A stretch of 64,000 bases of DNA from Ammoniphilus oxalaticus. Lineage in GTDB: Bacteria; Bacillota; Bacilli; Aneurinibacillales; RAOX-1. The notes beneath the pieces are model-generated. The model worked only from the letters and a program-made list of their open reading frames with translations. It did no database searches and was not told the origin of the DNA. Below are positions 2,876 to 58,827 of this stretch, one piece after another. The stretch's first letter is position 1; each line of letters opens with the position of its first letter. The stretch spans positions 434,001 through 498,000 of the forward strand of contig NZ_MCHY01000008.1 in assembly GCF_003609605.1 (NCBI RefSeq), written 5' to 3'. A program made the position numbers and the translations under genes.

Positions 2876-2900
2876 ATTATATTGCGTCAAAAAAAAAGCC

Positions 2901-2940
2901 GGATGTCATTGAATGCGCCAACGCATTTTCCTGAACATCC
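2901..2940. repeat. Nested inverted repeat (two stacked hairpins)
   Basis: The outer arms GGATGT (2901-2906) and ACATCC (2935-2940) enclose an inner perfect hairpin, AATGCG-CCAA-CGCATT (2912-2927). There is no T tract after it. It is preceded by a run of A residues, so on the minus strand it could resemble a terminator (stem followed by T residues). Function unknown. Confidence 0.5.
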
Positions 2941-2975
2941 AGCCAATGGGAGAGGAGAAACCGGAGGAAGAGCTT

Positions 2976-3074
2976 ATGGGGAAACGTAAGTCTTCTCCGC
3001 GGTTGTCAGTAACACAAATCATGTTACTAGTCATATTATGGGCACGATTAAGGAAAGATATACATATAAAGTGA
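2976..3074 (+). CDS. Possible small hydrophobic protein, 32 aa (uncertain)
   Basis: A short ORF beginning MGKRKSSPRL, with a GGAGG Shine-Dalgarno 8 nt before its ATG. It has basic ends around a hydrophobic middle (IMLLVILWA) that could span or insert into the membrane. I recognise no family. The good ribosome site is the only positive evidence, and short ORFs of this kind arise by chance, so the call is weak. Confidence 0.25.
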   Translation: MGKRKSSPRLSVTQIMLLVILWARLRKDIHIK

Positions 3075-42287: not shown

Positions 42288-42318
42288 AAAAGCCCTATCG
42301 CAATGAGATGGGGCTTTT
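42288..42318 (+). terminator. Rho-independent terminator after codY
   Basis: AAAAGCCCTATC pairs with GATGGGGCTTTT (one wobble) around a 7-nt loop. It separates codY from the riboswitch transcript. Confidence 0.8.
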
Positions 42319-42483
42319 CCTATTTATTTTATAGTATAATCATCCCGATTTCAATATGAATCTTTAAAAATAAATCTAGTAGGTCTTTTTTCACAGTGGT
42401 TGTAAAGTGTTTAATAAATATGACATAAAAGATCAATAATTTCAAAAGAATTTGCGGTTTCATGTCGAAAAAAAATTAATTCA

Positions 42484-42492
42484 TGCTATAAT
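42484..42492 (+). promoter_or_regulatory. Extended -10 promoter of the flagellar operon
   Basis: TGCTATAAT is an extended -10 with a perfect hexamer; the -35 region is poor. Transcription would start near 42499, just ahead of the riboswitch. Confidence 0.6.
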
Positions 42493-42518
42493 CCTTATAT
42501 AACTTAATACGATAATAA

Positions 42519-42604
42519 ACCTTCTAGGGCAAACTCGAACGAAAGGCGAGGGCGCAAAGTCACAGATCTACGTTGTTAATAGGATGGCTGGGCTACGGGG
42601 AGGT
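42519..42604 (+). promoter_or_regulatory. Cyclic di-GMP-I (GEMM) riboswitch aptamer
   Basis: Conserved parts appear in order: AGGGCAAA (42526-42533), a hairpin with GAAA tetraloop (42541-42544), GGCGCAAAG (42551-42559), then the second arm ending GGCTGGGCTAC. P1 is formed by ACCTTC (42519-42524) and GGAGGT (42599-42604). The residue matching the key G of the ligand pocket is G (42528), which fits c-di-GMP and not the A seen in cGAMP variants. It lies in the leader of the flgB operon. Confidence 0.92.
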
Positions 42605-42617
42605 GTATTGATCATGC

Positions 42618-42644
42618 GAATCCCACCTTTCTAGGGATTTTTTT
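42618..42644 (+). terminator. Riboswitch-controlled terminator
   Basis: AATCCC (42619-42624) pairs with GGGATT (42634-42639), followed by seven T residues. Its left arm overlaps an alternative helix: GGGAGGTG (42598-42605) with CACCTTTC (42624-42631). That antiterminator shares bases with riboswitch P1, so P1 formation favours the terminator. Confidence 0.75.
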
Positions 42645-42703
42645 ATATTTATTTTTTAATTATTCAGATAAGTTGATTTAGTAAAATGGAGGTGCGGAGA
42701 GTT

Positions 42704-43105
42704 ATGAGTTTAACTGTATTAAACTTACTTGGGCGGGGGCTTGATGCTTCGGCGCTTCGGCAACAGACGATTTCAAACAACATTGCCAATGCGGAAACCC
42801 CCCATTACCAATCGCAGCGTGTTGTCTTTGAAGAGACACTGCAAGCTGCGTTGAACAGTAGCGGTGTGGGTTCATTTCAAGGTAAACGGACCGATCCGCG
42901 GCATATCGAAATAGGTATGACTACCCAGTTACCGACGCCAACGATACGAGAGGTAAAAACGATCCAAAACAACAATGAAAATGGCGTAGATTTAGATTAC
43001 GAGATGACCTCATTAGCGCGCAATTCGGTCTGGTACAATGCGATAGCGCAGCAAATGAATCATGAATTTAATCAATTAAAAACAGTGATCAAAGGGAGGG
43101 GTTAA
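42704..43105 (+). CDS. flgB: Flagellar basal-body rod protein FlgB
   Basis: Proximal rod subunit exported by the flagellar type III apparatus. It has 133 aa with the N-terminal rod motif QQTISNNIANAETPHYQ and a coiled C-terminus. The ATG is preceded by GGAG 4 nt away and by a second GGAGGTG further up; the six-codon extension upstream is not needed. First gene behind the riboswitch. Confidence 0.96.
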   Translation: MSLTVLNLLGRGLDASALRQQTISNNIANAETPHYQSQRVVFEETLQAALNSSGVGSFQGKRTDPRHIEIGMTTQLPTPTIREVKTIQNNNENGVDLDYEMTSLARNSVWYNAIAQQMNHEFNQLKTVIKGRG

Positions 43106-58047: not shown

Positions 58048-58827
58048 ATGGCGATGAATCTAAACAGACAAAAGGAGCTCGCGGCAGATGAGCGGTGGTG
58101 GGAGGCTTGGACGGAAAAGCGCGATCTAACAGCAAGAGAACATTTGACGCATCGGTACATGCCTGTCGTGCATCGCATCGCGACGCGAATCAAGCTGACA
58201 CTGCCGCAAATGGTCGATAAAGATGATTTAATCAGTTGGGGGTATCTTGGTCTGCTCGACGCTTTGCAAAAGTTTGATTATCAGCTGGGCTGGACGTTTG
58301 AAACGTACGCGGTGCCGCGCATTCGTGGGGCGATTATCGATGGACTACGCGGAACAGATTGGGTGCCTCGTTCGATTCGCAGCAAAGCTAGAAAGCTAGA
58401 GGAGGCGCAACGATCGTTGGAACAGGCCTATTTTCGAGCCCCAACCGAAGCGGAGCTGTGTGAACATTTAGAAATGAGCAAGACGGAACTGCAAAAGGTT
58501 TCCAGGCAAGTTTCCAATAGCCATGTCGTCTCCTTGGACGAACCGCGCCAACATGGAGATGAGGATACGACTTTGATGCAACAGCTTGTTGATGAGTGGG
58601 AGCCGACTCAGGTCGATCAAGTCGAGCAACAGGAAACGCGGCAACTATTGGGGCAATTAATTGAGAAATTGCCAGAACGCGAACAGCTTGTGCTTTCTTT
58701 GATCTATGTAGAAGAGCTTACCTTTTCACATACAGCGGAAGTGCTTGGCGTGACGACGGGACGGATCTCGCAAATTCATTCGAAAGTGATCGCTCGCCTA
58801 CGCGAACAATTTAAGAGATTTGAATAA
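58048..58827 (+). CDS. sigD: Flagellar sigma factor SigD (FliA/WhiG family)
   Basis: 259 aa. Sigma-70 region 2 (DDLISWGYLGLLDALQKFD), region 3 and region 4 helix-turn-helix (FSHTAEVLGVTTGRISQIHSK). It directs late flagellar genes; a matching consensus promoter stands before motA in this window. GGGGGGAGG precedes the ATG. In B. subtilis the cheBAWCD genes lie between flhG and sigD; here the gap is 21 nt. Confidence 0.97.
   Translation: MAMNLNRQKELAADERWWEAWTEKRDLTAREHLTHRYMPVVHRIATRIKLTLPQMVDKDDLISWGYLGLLDALQKFDYQLGWTFETYAVPRIRGAIIDGLRGTDWVPRSIRSKARKLEEAQRSLEQAYFRAPTEAELCEHLEMSKTELQKVSRQVSNSHVVSLDEPRQHGDEDTTLMQQLVDEWEPTQVDQVEQQETRQLLGQLIEKLPEREQLVLSLIYVEELTFSHTAEVLGVTTGRISQIHSKVIARLREQFKRFE

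Follow-up and report, generated by a model that had tools for sequence, protein, structure and literature searches.

A c-di-GMP-I riboswitch ahead of the flgB-to-sigD operon of Ammoniphilus oxalaticus and its probable action as an OFF switch

The flagellar gene flgB is preceded by what its sequence identifies as a real riboswitch aptamer of class c-di-GMP-I, and it is very probable that the element is a transcriptional OFF switch for the operon from flgB to sigD. It lies in a 3.3-Mb genome of the class Bacilli and was analyzed within a window of 64,000 nucleotides, i.e. the whole stretch of DNA under study, whose numbering is used here. Leader RNA would be made from a sigma-A promoter at about 42465-42492. 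With c-di-GMP bound, P1 (42519-42525/42598-42604) would be locked and the GGGAGGUG strand could not reach the CACCUUUC strand; the hairpin 42618-42640 would form, and transcription would end before flgB. Without ligand, GGGAGGUG would pair with CACCUUUC, and read-through would yield the flagellar and sigD messages. What the sequence shows is the aptamer match, conservation of the ligand residues, mutually exclusive pairings, a terminator above chance, operon continuity, and recurrence in relatives of the order P1, antiterminator, terminator. Ligand binding, the start site, and the direction and size of the response in the flgB leader are what we infer. The features are collected in Table 1.

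Table 1. Features of the flgB leader and of the operon that it precedes, in window coordinates
Feature	Position	Strand	Basis or remark
Spo0A-box-like TGTCGAA overlapping the -35 element	42463-42469	+	heptamer match
Predicted sigma-A promoter TCGAAA-16-TATAAT, extended -10 (TGC TATAAT 42484-42492)	42465-42492	+	consensus match, 10/12 bases
c-di-GMP-I (GEMM-I) aptamer	42518-42600	+	RF01051, 49.3 bits
P1 5' strand	42519-42525	+	pairs with 42598-42604
G20 equivalent, ligand contact	42528 (G)	+	alignment
Possible second antiterminator AT2, 5' strand, aptamer core	42541-42555	+	pairs with 42616-42631
C44 equivalent C42553, A47 equivalent A42556	42553-42556	+	alignment
G83 equivalent G42587, C92 equivalent C42596	42587-42596	+	alignment
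P1 3' strand	42598-42604	+	common to P1 and antiterminator
Antiterminator AT1 5' strand	42598-42605	+	pairs with 42624-42631
Antiterminator AT1 3' strand	42624-42631	+	pairs with 42598-42605
Intrinsic terminator hairpin and U tract	42618-42644	+	stem 42618-42624/42634-42640; U 42638-42644
flgB, first gene of the operon	42704-43105	+	listed ORF 42686-43105
sigD (FliA/WhiG family), final + strand gene of the run	58048-58827	+	

A scan with the GEMM-I covariance model, set beforehand as a refutation test of the preliminary description, returned a match at 49.3 bits against the Rfam gathering cut-off of 35 bits for RF01051 (E = 1.3e-6 in the 64-kb window). Residues were mapped with the Vc2 and Vc1 numbering of PMC4744006, where G20, A47, and C92 of Vc2 contact c-di-GMP and C44-G83 form an interhelical pair. 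All of these residues are kept in the flgB aptamer, and c-di-GMP is therefore its predicted ligand. A G at position 20 predicts c-di-GMP over cGAMP, whereas an A is typical of the cGAMP-selective GEMM-Ib. Specificity for cGAMP was rejected because G42528, not A, occupies this position. At least eight strong GGDEF domains and four full EAL domains are encoded in the genome, and c-di-GMP turnover is therefore likely.

Several traits of the aptamer are irregular. The C93 position, next after C92, holds G42597 instead of a near-invariant C, a replacement unique to the flgB aptamer among 33 aligned aptamers of the order, although another flgB riboswitch (L159) carries an A there, and the position is therefore perhaps freer in the flgB setting. 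The tip of P2 has a bulge, A42538, and an A-G mismatch; the GAAA tetraloop is present at 42541-42544, and the P3 receptor has changed from CUAA to CUAC. The score is the lowest of the five c-di-GMP-I copies in the genome. These traits would suit a degenerate or desensitized riboswitch, in which the folded aptamer has too low an affinity for c-di-GMP to matter and the terminator attenuates the flagellar operon constitutively; so would an energy model with the terminator as default. A precedent is Bc1 of Bacillus thuringiensis, a related element in the mcpE leader, in which a c-di-GMP-I aptamer is likewise followed by intrinsic terminators, but which differs from the present leader in its gene, its dual terminator, and its unresponsiveness to c-di-GMP in the host (PMC11218506). 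We nevertheless hold desensitization to be unlikely, with all ligand-contact residues retained and the mimicry between the P1 and antiterminator strands intact and better than chance.

P1, proposed earlier, was read directly at its place as 6 bp (42519-42524/42599-42604; AU, CG, CG, UA, UG, CG), or 7 bp with U42525-G42598, and upon folding it was extended by an outer helix, 42511-42517/42606-42613. The pairing of the proposed 8-bp antiterminator, AT1, was verified as well, two of its pairs being G-U; P1 and AT1 share the strand 42598-42604 and are mutually exclusive. The terminator is located as claimed between the aptamer and flgB, with a stem 42619-42624/42634-42639 that reaches 7 bp with G42618-U42640 (-7.5 kcal/mol) and was equalled by 3 of 500 shuffles. 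The antiterminator had also been said to cover part of the left arm of the terminator. This holds for one base, C42624, the first of CACCUUUC, and the remainder of that strand lies in the terminator loop, of which it takes up nearly all. With at most 1-2 linker bases on the 3' side, AT1 and the terminator would, for steric reasons, hardly form together. As evidence, the AT1 duplex is weak on its own, because 44 of 1000 shuffles reached it. The near-repeat of ACCUU-CUAGGG, on the 5' side of P1, and ACCUUUCUAGGG, in the terminator loop and right arm, was seen in 0 of 1000. A 19-nt T-rich stretch after the terminator (42640-42658) is 84% alike to one after the codY terminator (42315-42333); this likeness could be low complexity.

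Because the terminator (42618-42640) and the aptamer (42518-42604) do not overlap, the terminator can form on ligand-bound RNA. Elsewhere, c-di-GMP-I switches of the ON type are known, but here this lack of overlap argues against c-di-GMP promoting read-through, as does the lack of any ligand-stabilized strand competing with the terminator arms. An ON switch was rejected as extremely improbable, since no pairing in the flgB leader supports it. OFF logic by termination, as first suggested, is the best reading, P1 and antiterminator pairing being exclusive and the terminator compatible with the bound aptamer.

In nearest-neighbor calculations, the P1 and AT1 folds were nearly equal at RNA end 42632 (-24.5 versus -23.6 kcal/mol), and the AT2 fold was lower than both (-28.9 kcal/mol). 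For the complete leader, the terminator with P1 was best (-31.6 kcal/mol; terminator P = 0.95). In the thermodynamic model, AT1 stayed at a probability of 0.004 or less, and the completed terminator prevailed; a leader that is always OFF would therefore be compatible too. Because simple energy models do not favor AT1 over P1, read-through of the ligand-free leader is likewise what we infer. The modeled energies look like those of a kinetically decided terminator switch, and a leader that mostly terminates would fit too.

The OFF switch might instead work through AT2, whose 5' strand in the aptamer core (42541-42555) would pair with 42616-42631 without ligand, dismantling P2 and sequestering the left arm of the terminator. 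AT2 made up about 0.9-0.99 of the ensemble at RNA ends 42632-42636, and 25 of 1000 shuffles matched its duplex, although its GAAAG/CCUUU match is partly forced by conserved aptamer sequence. The predicted barrier on leaving P1 is higher for AT2 than for AT1 (saddles at -7.9 versus -13.1 kcal/mol). Equivalent pairing was rare in 24 relatives, at most 0.23, and AT2 was rejected as a conserved antiterminator because it is not kept there. We judge an OFF switch acting through AT2 improbable.

AT1 pairing recurs in flgB leaders of another family of the class, f4, and AT1 is therefore better supported than AT2. When the target was aligned with 24 f4 leaders, the 3' strand of P1 fell into the same columns throughout, as did the left arm of the terminator. 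Most of these leaders can form the antiterminator pairs, and the target forms 6 of the 7. Across this set, 78.9% of the cells were paired, versus 16-75% in slid controls, and the antiterminator segment had a mean z of -1.9. AT1-type pairing dominated the predicted intermediate in about half of the f4 relatives, and a shifted register of it did so in several others. AT1 covariation was not above that of shuffles (142/500), a test that was uninformative because the strands hardly vary. The f4 leaders resemble the target in running from aptamer to terminator to flgB, with the 3' strand of P1 pairing to the left arm of the terminator. They differ in that codY is absent from the 1.5 kb examined and in that most of their terminators are longer, the antiterminator strand being part of the stem.

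The flgB riboswitch is patchily distributed. No c-di-GMP-I match was found at the flgB leader in any of 13 codY-flgB loci of the same order, and the codY-flgB gap was 170-224 bases in the ten measured, versus 420 in the target. Among 38 named codY loci, flgB lies downstream in 37, and none of these 37 carried a riboswitch at the Rfam cut-off. From these absences, a lineage-specific gain is therefore probable. A survey of FlgB loci covered another 88 genomes of the class, each selected because it has at least one c-di-GMP-I match, and located the aptamer upstream of flgB in five loci, L195, L198, and L200 of family f4 and L159 and L219 of family f7. In a leader-model search of f4, 25 of the 30 best loci (L222-L251) were directly before flgB. 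The order aptamer, terminator, flgB thus occurs in two further families, f4 and f7. The f7 pair has codY as a neighbor; its leaders, unlike the target, have long terminators and no obvious AT1. Because model R1 included the target among its rows, its target score does not count as independent evidence. Orthology cannot be told with model R2, in which the target scored 58.7 bits, like unrelated c-di-GMP-I leaders.

Other c-di-GMP-I riboswitches of the same genome precede different genes. Three (L001 1501-1586; L003 1501-1584, - strand; L004 1501-1584) lie 23-26 nt before 44-codon ORFs. Two of these ORFs were tested and matched Pfam SinI above the cut-off, and the third is nearly the same as one of the two. 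For Bacillus methanolicus, a c-di-GMP riboswitch ahead of sinI has been reported (PMC4342826). Another (L002 1501-1592, - strand) is followed by a long ORF with a likeness to methyl-accepting chemotaxis proteins. In related genomes, L086, L101, L102, L104, L110, and L113 stand before ORFs (about 50-57 codons) resembling transposase-type helix-turn-helix domains that stand alone. Of the 33 aptamers of the order, the sinI-leader copy L003 is most similar to the target (70%; L001, 67%; L004, 65%), and a GUCAC segment is common only to the target, L003, and L004. These likenesses hint at copying within the genome, which 85 bases cannot prove. A leader gained by copying a same-genome riboswitch, with its own aptamer core as the antiterminator, seems decidedly doubtful; if true, ligand binding and terminator release would compete for the same bases twice.

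The predicted promoter is overlapped by the heptamer TGTCGAA, which we take to be a Spo0A-type box. Downstream of codY, TGTCGAA or TGACGAA was present in 42 of the 49 regions compared, versus 3.7 expected from shuffling, and this type of box is widespread there in Bacilli, riboswitch present or absent. A spo0A mutant of C. difficile is hyperflagellate (PMC4028888). The suggestion that the CodY-flanked context adds nutrient control found no support: the best CodY-box match near the flgB promoter had 4 mismatches, no better than chance (144 of 300 shuffles), and codY adjoins flgB in most Bacilli examined. The closest named CodY proteins are those of Brevibacillus (76-81% identity; same-order members, 80-86%). 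A ylbH leader RNA (RF00516, 68.5 bits) was detected at 2889-3002.

As had been proposed, the whole flagellar operon lies downstream of the riboswitch: flgB to sigD is an unbroken gene run fed by the leader, and terminators within it were not above chance (19 found, 20.1 expected in shuffled sequence). The start of flgB is likelier at 42704 than at 42686, with the ribosome-binding site GGAGGTG at 42688-42694. This site repeats the P1 3' strand 42599-42605, and the CACCUUU strand could therefore also pair with it, possibly as a second, translational effect. A stand-alone FliN domain (111 amino acids) at 50055-50390 matches the C-terminal part of FliY only.

OFF control before flgB is not new. 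Class I switches of C. difficile work as OFF switches, and the one at flgB terminates transcription (PMC6200980). The parallel drawn in the preliminary description is supported, in that the target resembles Cdi-1-3 in having a flgB leader with a class I aptamer, an operon with sigD, and, as predicted, termination with c-di-GMP (PMC6200980, PMC11477304). It differs in belonging to the class Bacilli, adjoining codY, and having a weaker aptamer and a Spo0A-type box in the promoter. No flgB riboswitch in Bacilli was found in the literature searched, which covered few subscription papers. The flgB riboswitch is genuine, ordinary but legible, and its patchy distribution was not found in that literature either. 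Riboswitch control of flagellar operons by c-di-GMP would extend beyond C. difficile to several Bacilli families. Families f1, f4, and f7 have the riboswitch and most relatives lack it at this promoter, a pattern that could be used to test how frequently such an element has been placed at the head of the flagellar cascade, from which position it would control sigma-D too.
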